Below are positions 1,854 to 20,231 of a stretch of DNA of 20,231 bases, in pieces. A program made the position numbers and the translations under genes. Each line of letters begins with the position of its first letter. The stretch's first letter is position 1. Origin of the DNA: a virus; IMG/VR virus record IMGVR_UViG_3300030104_003371, positions 1 to 20,231 of that record. One strand, written 5' to 3'. The notes beneath the pieces are model-generated. The model saw nothing but the letters and a program-made list of their open reading frames with translations. It ran no database searches and was not told the DNA's origin.

Positions 1854-1899
1854 CTGAGTGTCAACGAAGGAAAAGGGAAGAAGTATTAGGACTTTTAAT

Positions 1900-3375
1900 A
1901 TGCTTACAGGAAATCATGAGGTTGAGAGATCTAATATCTGTATATGGAATGAAGATCTTCTCCCTCTTCTGAAAACGCGAAACCCACAAAAAATCAAACA
2001 CTCAGACATTAACTGGGTTGGATCGGTTGGTGTACATACTTCTCTTGAAGAAAAGATTATTTCTAGAAAAGAGGGTCCGTACCACTCGGAAAGATATATC
2101 AATTGTGATATCAGTGTTCCGGGAATTGTTGTCGCTTGTCCCGGTCCTGATGAAAAATATAGATTAGTTGATGGTGGACATCGCATGGCAAAGATGATAT
2201 CATTGGGTATATCTGAGTCAGAATATTATGTTATTGAGAAGGATGAATATGAGTCGTTATTTAAAACGTGGGAAGGAACTCCATTGAGCGAGGCAGAAAT
2301 TAAATCTGAGTTCCCCTCTTTATTTGATCATGTGTCGGGAATATACACTCCATTAAATCAACCGGATAGATGTGTTTATAGGAGGGACTTGATTCCTATT
2401 TTGCGTGGTAGGCATGTTGTTGAAATCGACTTGAATAAAATAGTTTGCAGAGATGTGATTGATAGTAATGAAGCAAGGTATATTGCAAATACTATTAATG
2501 ATAACATGACAGGTATTGTCATTAAAAGTGAAGATGGATACGAGTTGGTTGATGATGAACATCTTATCTTTAAACTTAAGTTTTTCGGTAAAACCAAGCA
2601 CACCTTTACTGTAATTACTGATGAAGAAATTAAACCACATTACCGGTGTATTGAAAGTGGTCTTCTTCTTTCGGAAAATAGAATCGAACTTAAAAAAATT
2701 CACAATGTTTTTGGATTTGATATTCCGGTCTTTAGATATCTTAATCATGAGAAGTTCAAGTCCGATCTTTATTATCAATTTAATCAATACTCTCTTGCTG
2801 GTGAAACATATACTAGAACAGATAGAAGAAAGAATATATTTGATATTGAAAGTGAATCTGTCCTTGATCTCAAGAACGCAACCATGTCTGCTTATGATTG
2901 TTTTTACAAACACATACATGGAATTAATTTTTCCGACACTATTGAAATAACACAGTCTTGGATGGTAGATTTGCCTGCGGTTCCCCACCAAAACCCAATG
3001 TCAGTACACGGTCATTTTATGTCTCTTGCATGTAGCACATACTATATGAAACATGAGCAGGGGGTTGGTGGTGATCTTAGGTTTGAGAATCCTATAGTGG
3101 ATTTTATGGATAATGTTATTGAGTTTAAATTACTAAACAAGATGAGGTGGACAAAGGGCAGGAATATGTTTTTCGACCTTCCTGTCGAGGAGTCGGATAT
3201 TGTTGTTTTCCCCGGTGGGTTCAAGCATACAATTAGTCCTTATATGAATACCAAGGAAAATCGAATTTCTATACCATCCAATTCATTATTAACTCCACTA
3301 AGATCTAGATCTGGTGAAGAACTTGAACCCCATTATGGTTATCGATTTGATATAGGAGGTCATCATGAACTTTGA
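1900..3375 (+). CDS. ParB-like domain(s) fused to 2OG-Fe(II) oxygenase
   Basis: A 491-residue protein when read from ATG 1900. A GTG at 1858 would add 14 residues, but it lies at or before the predicted transcription start, so ATG 1900 (TTAGG 9 bases upstream, weak) is preferred. Residues about 1-125 contain RLVDGGHRMAKM (88-99), the signature of ParB/sulfiredoxin-fold domains (DGxHRxxA). Residues about 155-245 look like a second, degenerate copy with ELVDDEHLIFKL at 215-226. Residues about 265-491 fit the phage 2OG-Fe(II) oxygenase family: QSWMVDLPA, then an HGH pair (370-372) as candidate iron ligands, LACSTYYM and GGDLRFENP, then FPGGFKHTISP with H443 as distal ligand, and R455 in ENRISIPSNS for 2-oxoglutarate. 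The substrate is unknown; protein, nucleotide or DNA hydroxylation are all possible. The gene is more A/T-rich by eye than gp23, has its own promoter and ends inside the uvsY start, consistent with an acquired cargo gene. Confidence 0.7.
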   Translation: MLTGNHEVERSNICIWNEDLLPLLKTRNPQKIKHSDINWVGSVGVHTSLEEKIISRKEGPYHSERYINCDISVPGIVVACPGPDEKYRLVDGGHRMAKMISLGISESEYYVIEKDEYESLFKTWEGTPLSEAEIKSEFPSLFDHVSGIYTPLNQPDRCVYRRDLIPILRGRHVVEIDLNKIVCRDVIDSNEARYIANTINDNMTGIVIKSEDGYELVDDEHLIFKLKFFGKTKHTFTVITDEEIKPHYRCIESGLLLSENRIELKKIHNVFGFDIPVFRYLNHEKFKSDLYYQFNQYSLAGETYTRTDRRKNIFDIESESVLDLKNATMSAYDCFYKHIHGINFSDTIEITQSWMVDLPAVPHQNPMSVHGHFMSLACSTYYMKHEQGVGGDLRFENPIVDFMDNVIEFKLLNKMRWTKGRNMFFDLPVEESDIVVFPGGFKHTISPYMNTKENRISIPSNSLLTPLRSRSGEELEPHYGYRFDIGGHHEL

Positions 3376-10353: not shown

Positions 10354-10821
10354 ATGAACATCTTCGTATTAAATAAAAATCCATATGAAGCAGCACGACA
10401 GGCGTGTGATAAGCATGTCGTAAAAATGATTTTAGAGTCTGCTCAAATGCTATGTGCCGTGCATCCGGAAGGAGTAGCACCATATAAGCGTTCTTTTTAT
10501 AATCATCCCTGCACAAAGTGGGTTCGTGAAACTGATAAAAACTATGATTGGTTGGTAAAACATGCACTCGGTTTATGTGCAGAGTATACTCGTCGGTATG
10601 GAAAGACACACAAGTCGGAGGAAGTCATCCAGTGGTGTAGATGTAATCGACCATACCTCCCCATCGGTGAACTCACTAAGCACCCTACATGTATGCCTGA
10701 TAAGTATAAGGTAGATTGTGTAGTGAAGTCTTACCAGAATTATTACAATGGTGAGAAAGCATATTTTGCCAAGTGGAAAGACGGTCCAGTCCCTTCTTGG
10801 TTTACAGGAGTATTTCAATGA
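10354..10821 (+). CDS. Conserved phage protein of unknown function
   Basis: A 155-residue protein starting MNIFVLNKNPYEAARQACDK. I recognise the pattern MNIFVLD-x-x-P-x-x-AA-x-x-x-CDKHVVKMxLE from hypothetical proteins of marine T4-like phages, but know no function. Visible features: CDKHVVKMILESAQML near the start, several conserved-looking Trp and His residues (NHPCTKWVR, NYDWLVKHALGLCAEY), and a C-terminal YFAKWKDGPVPSWF. It is compact, without signal peptide or membrane segment. An in-frame GTG at 10336 lies upstream of the promoter -10 and is rejected as the start. ATG 10354 has no Shine-Dalgarno sequence and sits at the predicted transcription start. Its stop overlaps galE. Confidence 0.75.
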   Translation: MNIFVLNKNPYEAARQACDKHVVKMILESAQMLCAVHPEGVAPYKRSFYNHPCTKWVRETDKNYDWLVKHALGLCAEYTRRYGKTHKSEEVIQWCRCNRPYLPIGELTKHPTCMPDKYKVDCVVKSYQNYYNGEKAYFAKWKDGPVPSWFTGVFQ

Positions 10822-11804
10822 ATCATGAAACAGTTTTAGTTACAGGAGGGGCAGGTTATATTGGATCACATGCCGTACATGCCCTCCTAGCATCCGGCAG
10901 AAAAGTCGTTGTCATCGACCGGGACAAAAAGGCATGTGACCATCTAAGCAAGACGTTCTCCAGAAGAAAAAATAAACCACAAGTCCATTGTTGTGATATT
11001 GATAATGATGTTTGGGTGGACGGGATTATAGAAAATGAAAAACCAACAGCAGTGATGCACTTTGCTGCTGATATATGTGTTCCAGAATCAGTTCAAAATC
11101 CACTCAAGTATTATAGTAATAATACAGCAAAGACTATTCGGTTTCTAGATAAAATTATTAAGCATGGTATTTACCGTTTCATTTTTTCTAGCACTGCGGC
11201 GGTTTATGGTATGCCCCCAGAGGAACATATTGTAGAACAAACTCCATGTCAACCAATTAATCCTTATGGACAATCAAAGTTAATGGTTGAACATGTTCTT
11301 AAGAAAATTTCACAGTCAATTCCAGCGTTTGAATATACTTCATTTAGATACTTCAATGTTGCCGGGGCGCATATATCTGGAAGAATAACTGACCCAAATT
11401 GGAGAGATAAATTAAATATTGTTCCAATGTTCCTTTCCCGCATCTTGTATAAGGACGGAAAGGTAGATGTCTATGGCACAGATTACGATACCCAAGATGG
11501 AACATGTGTTCGTGATTATGTTCACCCGGAAGATATTATTTCTGCACATATGATTGCACTGGACTCCGATGTGTCTGGTGTATATAATCTTGGATCTGGT
11601 AAAGGATACTCCGTTTGGAATGTCGTTGAGAATTTTGTCTCAGTGACCGGTAAAGAATTGGATGTAATACATAAACCACGGAGAAGTGGAGATCCTTCAG
11701 TTTTAATTGCAAACTCAGATAGATTCAGAAATATTTCTGGGTGGGAACCAACCTATTCTCTTAAAGACATGATCGCTACAGCATGGAAGGCGTATGGTAA
11801 ATGA
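10818..11804 (+). CDS. galE: UDP-glucose 4-epimerase (GalE-type)
   Basis: A 328-residue extended short-chain dehydrogenase. GalE interconverts UDP-glucose and UDP-galactose with bound NAD. TGGAGYIGSH (9-18) is the NAD-binding Gly motif, HFAAD (81-85) the next conserved block, SST (124-126) and Y150-x-x-x-K154 (YGQSK) the catalytic set, and RYFNVAGAH a family-typical stretch. E. coli GalE has 338 residues. ATG 10818 is chosen over an in-frame ATG at 10773 because CAGGAG (10805-10810) is well placed and MNHETVLVTGG begins the fold directly; it forms ATGA with the previous stop. A related epimerase (UDP-GlcNAc or uronate type) cannot be excluded. It could feed the glycosyltransferase cassette 4.6 kb downstream. 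Confidence 0.88.
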   Translation: MNHETVLVTGGAGYIGSHAVHALLASGRKVVVIDRDKKACDHLSKTFSRRKNKPQVHCCDIDNDVWVDGIIENEKPTAVMHFAADICVPESVQNPLKYYSNNTAKTIRFLDKIIKHGIYRFIFSSTAAVYGMPPEEHIVEQTPCQPINPYGQSKLMVEHVLKKISQSIPAFEYTSFRYFNVAGAHISGRITDPNWRDKLNIVPMFLSRILYKDGKVDVYGTDYDTQDGTCVRDYVHPEDIISAHMIALDSDVSGVYNLGSGKGYSVWNVVENFVSVTGKELDVIHKPRRSGDPSVLIANSDRFRNISGWEPTYSLKDMIATAWKAYGK

Positions 11805-15985: not shown

Positions 15986-16012
15986 TGATTTAGTTTAATA
16001 AAGGTGAAAAAC
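15986..16012 (+). promoter_or_regulatory. regA leader with ribosome site
   Basis: A 27-base AU-rich gap (TGATTTAGTTTAATAAAGG..) carries AAAGG at 16000-16004, about 8 bases before ATG 16013. This selects ATG 16013 over the in-frame GTG at 16004, which is part of the ribosome site. T4 RegA represses its own message by binding around its start, so this is the expected autoregulatory site; the exact contact bases cannot be read here. Confidence 0.45.
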
Positions 16013-16417
16013 ATGGGCGAGAAACTAGAGGCAGAAGATCTTATCGAAGTGACCCTTAATTCAGATGAAGACTTTCTGAAGGTGAAGGAAACGCTAACAA
16101 GAATAGGCGTTGCCTCCCGAAAAGACAAAAAACTGTATCAATCGTGTCATATTCTGCACAAAAGAGGCAAATACTATATCGTGCATTTTAAAGAACTTTT
16201 TTCGTTGGATGGTCTTAGATCAGATTTCAATGAAGAAGACGAAGGAAGAAGAAATGCGATTGTCGGGTTACTTGCCGAATGGGGATTAGTGAATATAGTT
16301 AACGTGAATAGTTGTTCAGAACCTGTAGTCCCTATAAGTAAAATTAAGATAATCAAGTATTCAGAGAGGGATGATTGGGAGTTATGTCCTAAATATCATA
16401 TAGGAAAGTCGAGATAA
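16013..16417 (+). CDS. regA: RegA translational repressor
   Basis: A 134-residue RNA-binding protein very close to T4 RegA (122 residues), which binds the start regions of early mRNAs such as 44, 45 and regA itself and blocks ribosomes. DFLKVKETLTRIGVA (20-34), KLYQSCHILHKRGKYYIVHF (40-59) and EEDEGRRNAIVGLLAEWGL (74-92) are nearly T4 sequence, and the ending WELCPKYHIG matches T4 WKLVPKYTIG. An extra ~9 residues precede the T4-like start. The 45-44-62-regA order is exactly that of T4, but the next gene is not DNA polymerase. Confidence 0.96.
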   Translation: MGEKLEAEDLIEVTLNSDEDFLKVKETLTRIGVASRKDKKLYQSCHILHKRGKYYIVHFKELFSLDGLRSDFNEEDEGRRNAIVGLLAEWGLVNIVNVNSCSEPVVPISKIKIIKYSERDDWELCPKYHIGKSR

Positions 16418-16424
16418 CTTTATT

Positions 16425-17087
16425 ATGAAAATTGATCTTTGTGATGTTCCAGTGAGGTGGATTAATGTTGATACCGCCACCGAAAATGCTAAATTAATGG
16501 AAGAGTTGTTGAATCGATTGGGTATGAAAAATTCCAGTCGATTTTCTGCCATTACAAATGTTCCCCCACATGACGGAGTACGTCCGGGAGAGGAACACTA
16601 TAGAAACTGTGCGGAATCCCACTTCGCAATTCTACAAGAAACAATAGAAAACGACTCTTTTCCTGTTCTCATCTTAGAGGACGATGTAGATATCGAAGAA
16701 TCTGTTTTTACAACACTGCTGGATAATATCCCAGATGATGCAGATGCTATTTACATGGGTACTTCCCACGGCGATAGTAACTATCACGCACAAGATGTTG
16801 GTGACGGATGGGTGCAAATCCATAGAGTATTTGCCACACATGCCATATTATATTTAAATTCAAAACTTGCAAAAGATGTAATTGAGACTGGAAAGAAATG
16901 GATCTATGAGTACAATAAACCTTTTGATGTTGGATTTGCATATGAAGTTCAACCTAGACACAAAGTATACACACCACATGTCCCTTTCTTTTTCCAATCC
17001 GATGCAAAAAATGCAATGAACAAGTGGGAGGGACTGACTAGAACTCCACTCAAGATTCACAGGAAATTTTCGATATTCACAATATGA
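16425..17087 (+). CDS. Family GT25-like glycosyltransferase
   Basis: A 220-residue enzyme with the hallmarks of glycosyltransferase family 25 (LPS galactosyltransferase/LgtB-like). RWINVDTATENAKLMEELL (11-29) fits the N-terminal strand and helix, GVRPGEEHYRNCAESHFAIL (51-70) the conserved SH-x-x-IL block, and PVLILEDDVDI (80-90) the family's acidic metal-binding motif. Donor and acceptor are not readable. ATG 16425 has no obvious ribosome site; AGGAAAG at 16402-16408 is rather far. It is the first gene of a five-gene transferase cassette and its stop overlaps the fucosyltransferase gene by ATGA. No membrane segment is seen. Confidence 0.82.
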   Translation: MKIDLCDVPVRWINVDTATENAKLMEELLNRLGMKNSSRFSAITNVPPHDGVRPGEEHYRNCAESHFAILQETIENDSFPVLILEDDVDIEESVFTTLLDNIPDDADAIYMGTSHGDSNYHAQDVGDGWVQIHRVFATHAILYLNSKLAKDVIETGKKWIYEYNKPFDVGFAYEVQPRHKVYTPHVPFFFQSDAKNAMNKWEGLTRTPLKIHRKFSIFTI

Positions 17088-17881
17088 AATATATTAGTTT
17101 TAACAATATGGGAAAATTTGGCAGACTGGGGAACTCCATGTTTCAGTATGCCACTGTTCTTGGGGCATCAAAAACTAATGGACACTTGCCTGCGTGTAAT
17201 GTTTCAGGCATACCTTTGTTTTCAGAATGCTTCGAGTTGGGGTCTGTTTCAGATCAAGTGATCCCAGAGGAACTTCTTTATATCGAAAAGGAGTTTTCCT
17301 TTAATGATCGGGTTCTCGACATTCCAACCGACCGAAGTGTTGATCTTCGTGGTTACTTCCAAAGTGAAAAATATTTCAAGCACATAGAAAATGAAGTTAG
17401 AAATAATTTTACTTTCACCGATAGTGTAAGAAATGTCGCTATTGAAAAAATACCAGAGGATGTTTGTGTTTCCGTTCATGTCCGGAGAGGCGATTATGTT
17501 AATCTTGGGGATCATCATCACAATCAGTCGATAGAATATTATCAAGAAGCGTTGGAACATTTTCCTGATCATATTCCGGTTTTTTTCTCGGATGATATTG
17601 ACTGGTGTAAAGAAACTTTTTCCACGGTAAAAAATAATCCCATTTTTATAGACAATGAGGACACCTTGAATCTAAGTGCTTCACTAAATTCAGACATGTC
17701 TGGTTACGTTGATATGTGTGCAATGTCTTTTTGCAACGATCACATCATAGCGAATAGCAGTTTTAGTTGGTGGGGTGCTTGGTTGGGGCAAGGAAACACC
17801 ATAGCACCCAAAACATGGTTTGGTCCAAGTGGACCACAAGACTGGCAAGATATTTATTGTGAGGGATGGATTACATTATGA
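17084..17881 (+). CDS. GT11 alpha-1,2-fucosyltransferase
   Basis: A 265-residue enzyme of family GT11, which moves fucose from GDP-fucose to a sugar 2-OH. GRLGNSMFQYA (13-23) is the family start motif, VSVHVRRGDY (129-138) the GDP-fucose-binding HxRRGD motif, and ANSSFSWWGAWL (223-234) the third conserved block; the length is near the bacterial norm (~280-300), so it looks complete. It is coupled to both neighbours by ATGA overlaps. No GDP-fucose synthesis gene is present in this window, so fucose donor must come from the host or from phage genes elsewhere. Confidence 0.92.
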   Translation: MKYISFNNMGKFGRLGNSMFQYATVLGASKTNGHLPACNVSGIPLFSECFELGSVSDQVIPEELLYIEKEFSFNDRVLDIPTDRSVDLRGYFQSEKYFKHIENEVRNNFTFTDSVRNVAIEKIPEDVCVSVHVRRGDYVNLGDHHHNQSIEYYQEALEHFPDHIPVFFSDDIDWCKETFSTVKNNPIFIDNEDTLNLSASLNSDMSGYVDMCAMSFCNDHIIANSSFSWWGAWLGQGNTIAPKTWFGPSGPQDWQDIYCEGWITL

Positions 17882-19179
17882 GTATAAAAGAAGCAGACCA
17901 ATTTATATGTTCGATGTTTGAAAAACATGGTCCCGTTGATCTAGGTGATTCAGATCTAGAAGTTTTTCTATCAGAGGACTTTCAGTTACAAAAACTAAAC
18001 GACCCCGGATGGAGTTTTCGTGGATCATATCCGGAAGTTAAACGATATTGTTCGGGTGGGTGGGATCCATGCTTTTGCATATTTTTAATGTGGATGTGGT
18101 ATGGTGGTCATGATTTTGAAAGAGTTTTTTCTGGGTGCATCCGAAATGGTGTTGCTCCTACGTCTTTTCTAAGACATATTAGGGACAGAGAGAATTTTTC
18201 TAAGAAGGTTTTGGAAATCAAGGAAGATGGGATTGATTATAAAAAGTTACTCGAAGCGTGTATCGTAGAAAAAAGAAAAGAGACTAAGTATAACATCATC
18301 GTTCCTGTAAAGGGCAGGACTGAACACCTAAAGAAGTTTTTGTTTGTAATGGAAAGAATGCTTTCTGGTAGAGATGATTGGTCTGTTACTATTATCTTCC
18401 AAGAGGAGACAGAAGATCTATTCCTTCAAGTAAAAGATCTAAAACCATCATTTAATCTTAACCTCATACACTTACCTCATTCTTTGGTTAGTGAAATGTA
18501 CGGGGATAACATGAACAGATCTTTGTGTTATAACGTGGCATCTAAACTCATTAAATGTGAATGGCAATTAAATCACGATGTAGACTTAATCTTTGATAGT
18601 AAGTTTCTAGATAACGTGGAAAATAAAACAGACAACCCCGACCTAAAGTGGTTACAACCATATCGAGGCAGTAGGGTAATCTACATGGATCCAACTGCCA
18701 CTGAAAATGTGATCGCACAAATAAAAGAGAAAAACAAAATATCTTACTCGGGTCCAGTTCCACACCTAAATGATACACCCAATACTGTTGGTGCGCCCGG
18801 TGGATGTGTTTGTATACGATGGAAAGACTTTCAGGAAATTGGAGGGTATGATCCCGAATTTGTATGGGGGTATGCTCCCGAGGATGCATTATTCTGGACT
18901 AAATTGGAATGCTACCATGCAGAGGATCTTGGATCAATCACGGAAAGTGATCGTCATCCCACTATCCATCCGTTCATTAGAGATGATGTCTTTAGTCATG
19001 ATAGTAACTCAGAACTATACCACATGTATCACCCACCCACTCAGGGTGTTGCGGGGAACAAATTCTGGAATATATGCATCCAGTTTTACATTAAAAATAT
19101 TTTTACGACAGAAGACTGTAAAGAATGGTTGAGGATTTCAAAGGAAGTTTATAATGCAAATACTAAATGCGGCAGATGA
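17878..19179 (+). CDS. Two-part GT-A glycosyltransferase (galactosyltransferase-like)
   Basis: A 433-residue protein. Residues about 138-370 form a GT-A transferase: NIIVPVKGRTEHLKKFL (139-155), then NRSLCYNVASKLIKCEWQLN and HDVD (233-236) as the DxD-type metal site, then APGGCVCIRWKDFQEIGGYD (306-325) and EFVWGYAPEDALFW (327-340). This last block is typical of galactosyl/N-acetylgalactosaminyl transferases of the chondroitin polymerase type. Residues 1-130 are an extra domain rich in aromatic residues (GGWDPCFCIFLMWMWYGGHD) that I do not recognise; one hydrophobic stretch there is too short and charged around it to call a membrane helix. ATG 17878 is chosen (ATGA overlap) over ATG 17866. The 3' end overlaps the next gene by 26 bases. 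Confidence 0.78.
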   Translation: MSIKEADQFICSMFEKHGPVDLGDSDLEVFLSEDFQLQKLNDPGWSFRGSYPEVKRYCSGGWDPCFCIFLMWMWYGGHDFERVFSGCIRNGVAPTSFLRHIRDRENFSKKVLEIKEDGIDYKKLLEACIVEKRKETKYNIIVPVKGRTEHLKKFLFVMERMLSGRDDWSVTIIFQEETEDLFLQVKDLKPSFNLNLIHLPHSLVSEMYGDNMNRSLCYNVASKLIKCEWQLNHDVDLIFDSKFLDNVENKTDNPDLKWLQPYRGSRVIYMDPTATENVIAQIKEKNKISYSGPVPHLNDTPNTVGAPGGCVCIRWKDFQEIGGYDPEFVWGYAPEDALFWTKLECYHAEDLGSITESDRHPTIHPFIRDDVFSHDSNSELYHMYHPPTQGVAGNKFWNICIQFYIKNIFTTEDCKEWLRISKEVYNANTKCGR

Positions 19180-20050
19180 GTCATATAAAACACTATGGAC
19201 TGATGAAGAGAAAAAATATTACGATCAGTTCCCTGTGACTATTTTAAATGATCTTTCTTGTTTACTAGACGATACACATGATGATTTTTCATTCGCATGG
19301 TTAAATGAAAGTCCTGATATTATCGAGTATAATTGGGAAATGTTTGTTCTATACAGCGATCTGTGGAAAGAAGGAGATAAAGTATCAAGATTTTATCCAG
19401 CAATGGTAGAAAAATTAAAAACAGGCGATCACAAATTTAAGACACTATACACACATGATAGAAGATATGAGGGATTACCTAATGTAAAAATTGTTCGCCC
19501 TGCCACGCCATCTTATATCAACACCGAACATTCTAAGGTCTATAAGAAAAAGAACGATCTTGTGTTTGTGACATCAAACAAATATGTGACCCCTCTTCAT
19601 AGATTAAGAGTAGATCTTTTGTCTCCGCTCATAGCAATGAATGTACCGTGCTTCGGTCAAGGCATCAATCCAATCAAAAATAAAGTAAAAGCATTGAAGG
19701 ATTATCGTTTTTGTCTAGTAATTGAGAATGGTGTTTTCTCTGGTTACCACACCGAAAAAATTATTGATTGTTTTAGGACAGGAACAATTCCAATTTATCT
19801 TGGAGATCCTGATATTGGTGATATTTTTGATGAAGATGGTATAATAAAAGTTACACAGGATGACCTGAAAGACATTGGAAGTTTTTTAATGAATTTCATT
19901 GATCCAATTATGGCACCCTCACTAGAAGAGTTTTATATGTCTAAACTAGAACACGTTAAAAACAACTTTGAGACATCTATGGCATATGACAATCATCCCA
20001 AAACTGTGATTAGATCTATTTTAAAAGAAGAAGGTTTCATAGATGAGTGA
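19154..20050 (+). CDS. GT10-like fucosyltransferase
   Basis: A 298-residue protein whose C-terminal half carries the alpha-1,3/4-fucosyltransferase family GT10 signature: LKDYRFCLVIENGVFSGYHT at 181-200, then EKIIDCFRTGTIPIYLGDPD (201-220), equivalent to the family's FEN-x-x-x-YVTEK-x-x-x-x-x-G-x-VPV-x-G. The N-terminal half is less clear but has the expected mixed alpha/beta character. AAGGAAG (19141-19147) six bases before ATG 19154 supports the start, which lies within the previous gene. A second GDP-fucose user directly after GT11 makes a fucosylated glycan product likely. A different GT-B donor use cannot be ruled out. Confidence 0.78.
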   Translation: MQILNAADESYKTLWTDEEKKYYDQFPVTILNDLSCLLDDTHDDFSFAWLNESPDIIEYNWEMFVLYSDLWKEGDKVSRFYPAMVEKLKTGDHKFKTLYTHDRRYEGLPNVKIVRPATPSYINTEHSKVYKKKNDLVFVTSNKYVTPLHRLRVDLLSPLIAMNVPCFGQGINPIKNKVKALKDYRFCLVIENGVFSGYHTEKIIDCFRTGTIPIYLGDPDIGDIFDEDGIIKVTQDDLKDIGSFLMNFIDPIMAPSLEEFYMSKLEHVKNNFETSMAYDNHPKTVIRSILKEEGFIDE

Positions 20051-20231
20051 AAAATTTTCGATAGTAATGGTAGGGTACAATTCTGCGTCTTGGATTCGTA
20101 AGTGCGTAGAAAGTGCTTTGAATCAAGACTATTCTGACTTTGAAGTAATAGCGATTGATGCGGAAACCAACGATGGTACATATGATATTCTAAAAGAGTA
20201 TGAATCACATGATAATTTTAAACTAATTAGA
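20043..20231 (+). CDS. GT2-type glycosyltransferase, N-terminal part (runs off window)
   Basis: ATG 20043 opens a frame to the window end (63 residues): MSEKFSIVMVGYNSASWIRK, then CVESALNQDYSDFEVIAIDA and ETNDGTYDILKEY. This is the classic start of a family 2 glycosyltransferase: a first strand with YN, the helix, then SAL-x-Q-x-Y-x-x-x-E-x-I-x-ID and the D-G-T loop. It overlaps the GT10 gene's end by 8 bases, so the cassette continues beyond the window. Specificity cannot be stated. Confidence 0.85.
   Translation, partial: MSEKFSIVMVGYNSASWIRKCVESALNQDYSDFEVIAIDAETNDGTYDILKEYESHDNFKLIR

Follow-up and report, generated by a model that had tools for sequence, protein, structure and literature searches.

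We analysed bases 1-20231 of a 33,279-base IMG/VR virus record (IMGVR_UViG_3300030104_003371), and call this whole stretch the window. The record is of class 'linear', often a fragment, and probably is one. Directly behind the regA gene of a marine T4-like phage, the window carries a run of same-strand glycosyltransferase (GT) genes that starts at 16425 and encodes a GT25-like enzyme, GT11, a GT-A type enzyme, GT10 and GT2, each gene overlapping the next, end to start. The original prediction of two different fucosyltransferase-family genes in one phage gene run was borne out, with both families confirmed and the genes overlapping. On balance, this run is probably a cassette for glycan editing, lying in an exchangeable slot behind regA and serving to add L-fucose-type sugars from guanosine diphosphate (GDP) donors to a host surface glycan. 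The families, the fold of the GT10 model, the conservation of its donor site, the gene order, the turnover of the slot, the co-occurrence of the two families and the place of the GDP-mannose dehydratase gene (gmd) in two relatives are directly supported, whereas we infer the donor, linkage, acceptor, target and benefit. The genes are as follows.

16004..16417, + strand: RegA translation repressor (phrog_242, 3.7e-56), left border of the variable slot.
16425..17087, + strand: GT25-like glycosyltransferase, opening the cassette (PF01755, 25.9 bits, cut-off 24; phrog_24091, 1.6e-24).
17084..17881, + strand: GT11, alpha-1,2-fucosyltransferase family (PF01531, phrog_2644, motifs).
17878..19179, alternative open reading frame (ORF) start 17866, + strand: putative GT-A fold glycosyltransferase (sub-cut-off matches, low-confidence model).
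19154..20050, + strand: GT10, alpha-1,3/4-fucosyltransferase family, GT-B fold (PF00852, PDB sequence matches, model).
20043..20231, + strand: start of a GT2 glycosyltransferase gene that runs to record position 20813 and overlaps the GT10 end (PF00535, 8e-20).

Judged by its sequence, the protein encoded at 17084-17881 is beyond doubt a canonical GT11. It scored 107.3 bits against PF01531 (cut-off 23.9; 1.1e-30), matched phrog_2644 at 7.3e-70 and contains GRLGNSMFQYA, HVRRGDY and ANSSFSWWGAW; we take HxRRxD and NSSFSWW-type motifs to be GT11 hallmarks. On these grounds the earlier family call (alpha-1,2 type) stands. The start of the gene overlaps the GT25 stop as ATGA. The predicted activity would use a GDP-L-fucose-type donor and form an alpha-1,2 linkage. 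As far as the available part of one study goes, GT11 enzymes also accept GDP-colitose and GDP-L-galactose, and two of them, WbgN and FUT2, transfer colitose from GDP-colitose as well as fucose from GDP-fucose (PMC11987014).

The enzyme at 19154-20050 gave a weaker call (PF00852, 32.5 bits, 33.2 in a second run; cut-off 23.9; 8.7e-8), and was therefore tested further by profile, model and fold search. In phmmer, its PDB sequence matches were fucosyltransferases only, the best being the H. pylori alpha-1,3-fucosyltransferase (1e-8). A profile of 39 phage GT10s matched five distinct PDB sequences, again all fucosyltransferases, the best at 1.4e-20. An AlphaFold model, based on an alignment of 33 rows (33 of 42 ORFs; the six rows from named phages, one short ORF of locus L002 and the two long ones of L008 and L009 were excluded), had a predicted local distance difference test score (pLDDT) of 87.3 and a predicted template modelling score (pTM) of 0.85. 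The top 17 Foldseek matches of this model were all GT10 fucosyltransferases. Fold alone is not decisive, since VIA-align placed FUT9 in the two best rows (Z 14.8 and 14.5) but non-GT10 GT-B enzymes close after it (Z 14.3, then 13.0). Residues E239-N240, Y246 and E249-K250 of the H. pylori enzyme (HpFucT, 2nzw), which we take to bind GDP-fucose, align with E191-N192, Y198 and E201-K202 in the C-terminal domain of the window enzyme, whose R152 is presumably the counterpart of HpFucT R195. Across the 33 phage rows R152, E191, N192, E201 and K202 are invariant and Y198 is conserved in >90%. Pfam score, PDB sequence matches, model fold and donor-site conservation together identify a true GT10. The original prediction had called the enzyme GT10-like, of the alpha-1,3/4 type, and had named structure-based assignment as its own test; that assignment placed it with GT10. 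In a GT10 tree, the window enzyme joins that of L016 (support 100/96) and then those of L018 and L102, although these joins are long branches, which the program warns may be false. The L016 protein is identical to the GT10s of L015 and L017, the latter lying in record G015. Tree labels for neighbouring genes of GDP-fucose synthase (fcl) or of the 3-dehydrase E1 showed no more clustering than shuffled labels, of which 142 and 139 of 500 were as low.

One glycosyltransferase gene (17878-19179) does lie between GT11 and GT10, as had been proposed, but its supposed 'galactosyltransferase-like' identity was not upheld, all GT7/beta4GalT matches falling below cut-off. Scores were 18.3 against 27 bits for PF13733 (0.0019) and 15.6 against 23 for PF02709 (0.013), PF05679 was also below, and a beta4GalT match at 0.003 was weak. 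The model had a pLDDT of 52, better over approximately residues 121-260, and its Foldseek matches were GT-A. Relatives were found neither in the viral-contig scan nor in the phage collection; a local search then found them in L015, L017 (29% identity) and L018 (43%). The enzyme may be a GT-A fold glycosyltransferase, weakly chondroitin-polymerase/beta4GalT-like, for which the label is possible. The sugar epimerase that had been counted with it lies elsewhere:

10818..11804, + strand: GalE, UDP-glucose 4-epimerase, outside the cassette (TIGR01179, 347.9 bits, cut-off 262.3).

GalE is real by this score but is not in an operon with GT11 and GT10. About 5.3 kb of sequence, which holds clamp-loader, RegA and other genes, separates its end from GT11. 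It sits upstream of gp45/gp44, in a different block that relatives conserve (L012-L015, L017 and L018, GalE 56-79% identical). GalE could supply UDP-galactose. The difucosylated, blood-group-like product originally envisaged is unsupported, since GT11 enzymes take other GDP-L-sugars, the galactosyltransferase label is weak for the enzyme encoded between GT11 and GT10, and GalE belongs to the separate block.

A hypervariable, exchangeable glycan cassette sits after regA. In L012, L013 and L014, gp45, gp44 and RegA are 85-99% identical to those of the window (RegA 85-93%), gp62 77-85% and GalE 75-79%. GT25 (66-80%) and GT11 (59-65%) follow, and past GT11 the loci differ in the genes they carry; this change beside closely similar core genes marks the cassette as hypervariable. 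GT25 directly precedes GT11 in L012, L013, L014, L015, L017 and L018 (45-80% identical to the window's GT25), the last GT2 gene of the block recurs in L013 (73%) and L018 (68%), and L018 has the same gene kinds in nearly the same order: GT25, GT11, GT10, GT-A enzyme, GT2. The core itself is mosaic relative to the window, with gp45 99% and gp44 86% identical in L013 and gp44 99% and gp45 90% in L014, which may reflect recent recombination. A hypervariable island of tail fibres and glycosyltransferases has been described in T4-like marine phages as the pelagimyophage host recognition cluster; in the available part of that paper, unlike in the window, it lies between VrlC and gp14 and GT8 is the main family (PMC7029224).

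Such quick turnover of content would also suit passive cargo, that is, functionless lipopolysaccharide (LPS)-type genes kept as headful-packaging filler or caught by recombination, an explanation raised for cyanophage LPS clusters in the accessible text of PMC3037559. We consider it very unlikely here. The frames are open and the gene starts overlap, the donor-site residues are invariant in 33 diverse GT10s, and GT25 stands immediately 5' of GT11 in several relatives.

Far from being an oddity, GT10 together with GT11 recurs in surface-glycan clusters of marine phages, and the cassette is a further example of a pair already known in phages. When 50 of the 80 GT11 loci were submitted to a PF00852 search, 26 of these 50 viral records, chosen for GT11, also had a GT10 over cut-off; G009, the record of L009, was below it. 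In the phage collection 19 records, some of them duplicate accessions, match the window GT10 at E <=0.01, and at least 12 of the 19 are also among the GT11 matches listed. All six named cyanophages with a GT10 over cut-off carry two to three GT11 genes as well, five of the six having been picked because matches to both had already been seen. No GT10 was found in cyanophage ACG-2014f. That two fucosyltransferase families in one phage would be new is ruled out by annotated cyanophages and viral contigs; in the window, the pair occupies a slot whose content is exchanged among phages that closely resemble one another in their core genes.

Synechococcus phage S-SRM01 (MW015081, L093) resembles the window in having GT10, two GT11, GT25 and GT2 in one LPS-type cluster. 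It differs in its gmd (540 bits), fcl (473 bits) and annotated NodZ-type fucosyltransferase genes, and its cluster ends near hli, ferredoxin and psbA genes instead of following regA. The LPS-type clusters of S-SSM7, S-SM2, S-T4, Sf-CH8 and S-SCSM2R likewise combine GT10 with two or three GT11 genes and, unlike S-SRM01, are without gmd over cut-off. As in the window, GT25 (T4-GC 266) is near GT11 (T4-GC 260) in S-SSM7 and S-SM2, where annotation equates gene cluster 260 with GT11 and 266 with GT25. Cyanophage LPS-type clusters are known, and in the available part of one report the gene clusters that three phages have in common include 260, 265 and 266 (PMC3037559). The S-T4, S-SM2 and Sf-CH8 clusters differ from the window in their heptose-type sugar genes: phosphoheptose isomerase and nucleotidyl-/cytidyltransferase genes are annotated within these GT10/GT11 clusters (L092, L095 and L097), where a heptose-type nucleotide donor is possible. 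For S-SCSM1, GDP-mannose 4,6-dehydratase, GDP-L-fucose synthase and several fucosyltransferases are reported; unlike in the window, no GT10 is named among its cell-wall genes in the accessible part of the paper (PMC9602691).

The observation that the window lacks GDP-mannose dehydratase and GDP-fucose synthase was confirmed and extends to the whole 33,279-bp record, where the best matches were 48 bits for gmd (cut-off 415) and 46 bits for fcl (cut-off 500). In G016 and G015, whose GT25-GT11-GT10 start is similar to that of the window, gmd lies between fibre-type genes and the family-B DNA polymerase gene. The present record ends before this place, so that the absence is uninformative, and we rejected it as evidence on this phage, the record being probably a fragment. 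Among 50 mixed records, gmd was over cut-off in 14; four of the ten GT10+GT11 viral records searched pass (G015, G016, G041 and G045) and two fall just below (G019 and G037). None of 47 records passes the strict 500-bit cut-off for fcl, with nine at 406-481 bits and four at 191-240, and an Fcl-type match of >=190 bits occurs in 11 of 26 GT10+GT11 records.

In the reading that we favour, a T4-like marine phage has an exchangeable cassette for glycan synthesis, inserted with regA on one side and fibre-type genes on the other, and the window covers its left part. The most likely role of GT25, GT11, the GT-A enzyme, GT10 and GT2 during infection would be to lengthen or cap a glycan of the host surface (the O-chain or the core of LPS). 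GT11 would add an L-fucose-type sugar in alpha-1,2 linkage and GT10 another in alpha-1,3/4 linkage. The GDP donors would come from the host or from phage genes past the record end, and the altered surface may block competing phages or mask receptors.

Several observations weigh against this reading. A phage-encoded GDP-fucose source is not the rule among GT10+GT11 phages. Of six complete cyanophage genomes with both families, five are without gmd over cut-off and reach at best 81-94 bits for fcl; the 86-kb relative G010, which also has both families, gave 51 bits for gmd (below cut-off) and 50 bits for fcl. In these phages the donor must usually come from the host, or else be a different one. 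The sugar pathways in the record are RmlC (over cut-off), RmlA-/RmlB-like (below equivalog cut-offs) and cytidine diphosphate (CDP)-hexulose 3-dehydrase-like, and to our knowledge their products are not known GT10 or GT11 donors. Lastly, the virion could be the target, as a collagen-like fibre-type gene borders the cassette. Directly after the cassette come a small conserved gene and then this collagen-like repeat gene; L114 and L115 have similar genes in that place, and in S-SCSM2R baseplate genes are found about 2 kb ahead of the cluster. Decoration of the phage's own fibres or capsid rather than of the host nevertheless seems unlikely. Sugar-synthesis genes of such a kind mostly serve LPS or other surface glycans. 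For similar clusters, the published reading, in the available part of the paper, is O-chain change and coinfection avoidance (PMC7029224).

Behind GT2 the record encodes, in order, a CDP-hexulose 3-dehydrase-like enzyme (E1/RfbH), a short-chain dehydrogenase, and DUF5672 and DUF3431 proteins. Further along are a radical-SAM frame broken by Ns, a methyltransferase, GT17, a second, weak GT11 (24.6 bits, cut-off 23.9) and GT2. The right part holds RmlA-, RmlC- and RmlB-like genes, another GT2 and, at the record end, the collagen-like fibre-type gene, which was labelled by eye. The first of these features bears on the choice of sugar:

Record 20764-22065 (L011:7485-8786), just past the window: E1/RfbH-like, CDP-4-keto-6-deoxyglucose 3-dehydrase-like, adjoining the short-chain dehydrogenase.

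When aligned to 3bcx, its SFYPAHHIT segment has a His in the place of the pyridoxal phosphate (PLP) lysine, and its cysteines C193, C251 and C253, then C262 or C265, follow a C-X57-C-X-C pattern; we take this His and this pattern to be the RfbH/E1 rule. Its 383 bits do not reach the NCBIfam equivalog cut-off of 423. Together with the dehydrogenase, the enzyme suggests a 3,6-dideoxyhexose route. A CDP-glucose route feeding it was rejected, with TIGR02622 and TIGR02623 over cut-off in none of 18 records. In L001, L005, L008 and L009, as in the record of the window, an E1-type 3-dehydrase gene follows the GT10 match at a distance of 1-2 kb.

Colitose is 3-deoxy-L-fucose, and colitose-type gene sets beside GT11 in relatives give a concrete idea of the attached sugar. 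L014 (in G012), whose gp44 is nearly that of the window, has the order GT25-GT11-GT11-Fcl-like-ColD-like, and the best PDB match of its Fcl-like protein is GDP-L-fucose synthase (267 bits). GT11 (PF01531, 69 bits), Fcl-like, ColD-like and Gmd genes are contiguous in G015, as are annotated Gmd, an epimerase (56% identical to S-SRM01 Fcl), a ColD-like protein (annotated hypothetical) and GT11 in ACG-2014f. The three ColD-like proteins have their best PDB matches in ColD/Wbdk (4e-61, 9e-61 and 2e-50), well above the CDP-sugar enzyme, and all carry GHH, a histidine motif that we take to mark 3-dehydratases. Such combinations of GT11, Fcl-like and ColD-like genes, with gmd in two of three, are likely GDP-colitose gene sets in phages; among the matches listed in literature searches, no paper named a phage-encoded colitose pathway. 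By position, GT11 stands beside Fcl-like and ColD-like genes in L014:10001-13667, L115:4947-8888 and L124:5633-9546, with gmd in L115 and L124.

These neighbours, the ColD/Wbdk matches with their GHH motif, and the use of GDP-colitose by WbgN and FUT2 would fit an L-sugar that is colitose or another GDP-L-fucose analogue, the 'fucosyltransferases' being colitosyltransferases in at least part of the lineage. We regard this as quite unlikely: the record of the window has no ColD-like gene, and its 3-dehydrase is nearer the CDP-sugar enzyme (269 bits) than the ColD group (187). G012 is without gmd over cut-off, and ACG-2014f is without GT10. A loose tblastn count over the 80 GT11 loci, covering <=10 kb on each side of GT11, found ColD-like genes in just 5 loci versus 34 for Fcl-like and 31 for Gmd-like genes. 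A broader proposal, speculative and somewhat doubtful, is that T4-like marine phages swap deoxysugar modules, among them seemingly complete GDP-colitose sets of gmd, colC-like and colD-like genes next to GT11, and that GT11 and GT10 of the slot attach any GDP-L-sugar from phage or host, so that the phage would re-type the host surface with a dideoxy sugar, much as in some O-antigens.

The marine T4-like phage genes of the window include those for the capsid, clamp loader parts and RegA, others being named by eye. A capsid-protein scan of genome contigs returned 12 contigs of metagenome-assembled genomes, <=56% identical and in mixed bins. The photosystem family PF00124 was found in none of 11 viral records, this record included, S-SRM01 being positive in the same search. 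At 1858-3375, the window encodes a protein of 505 aa that has a 2OG-Fe(II) oxygenase domain (PF13759, 3.7e-7) and, separate from it, an N-terminal part that matches phrog_35149.

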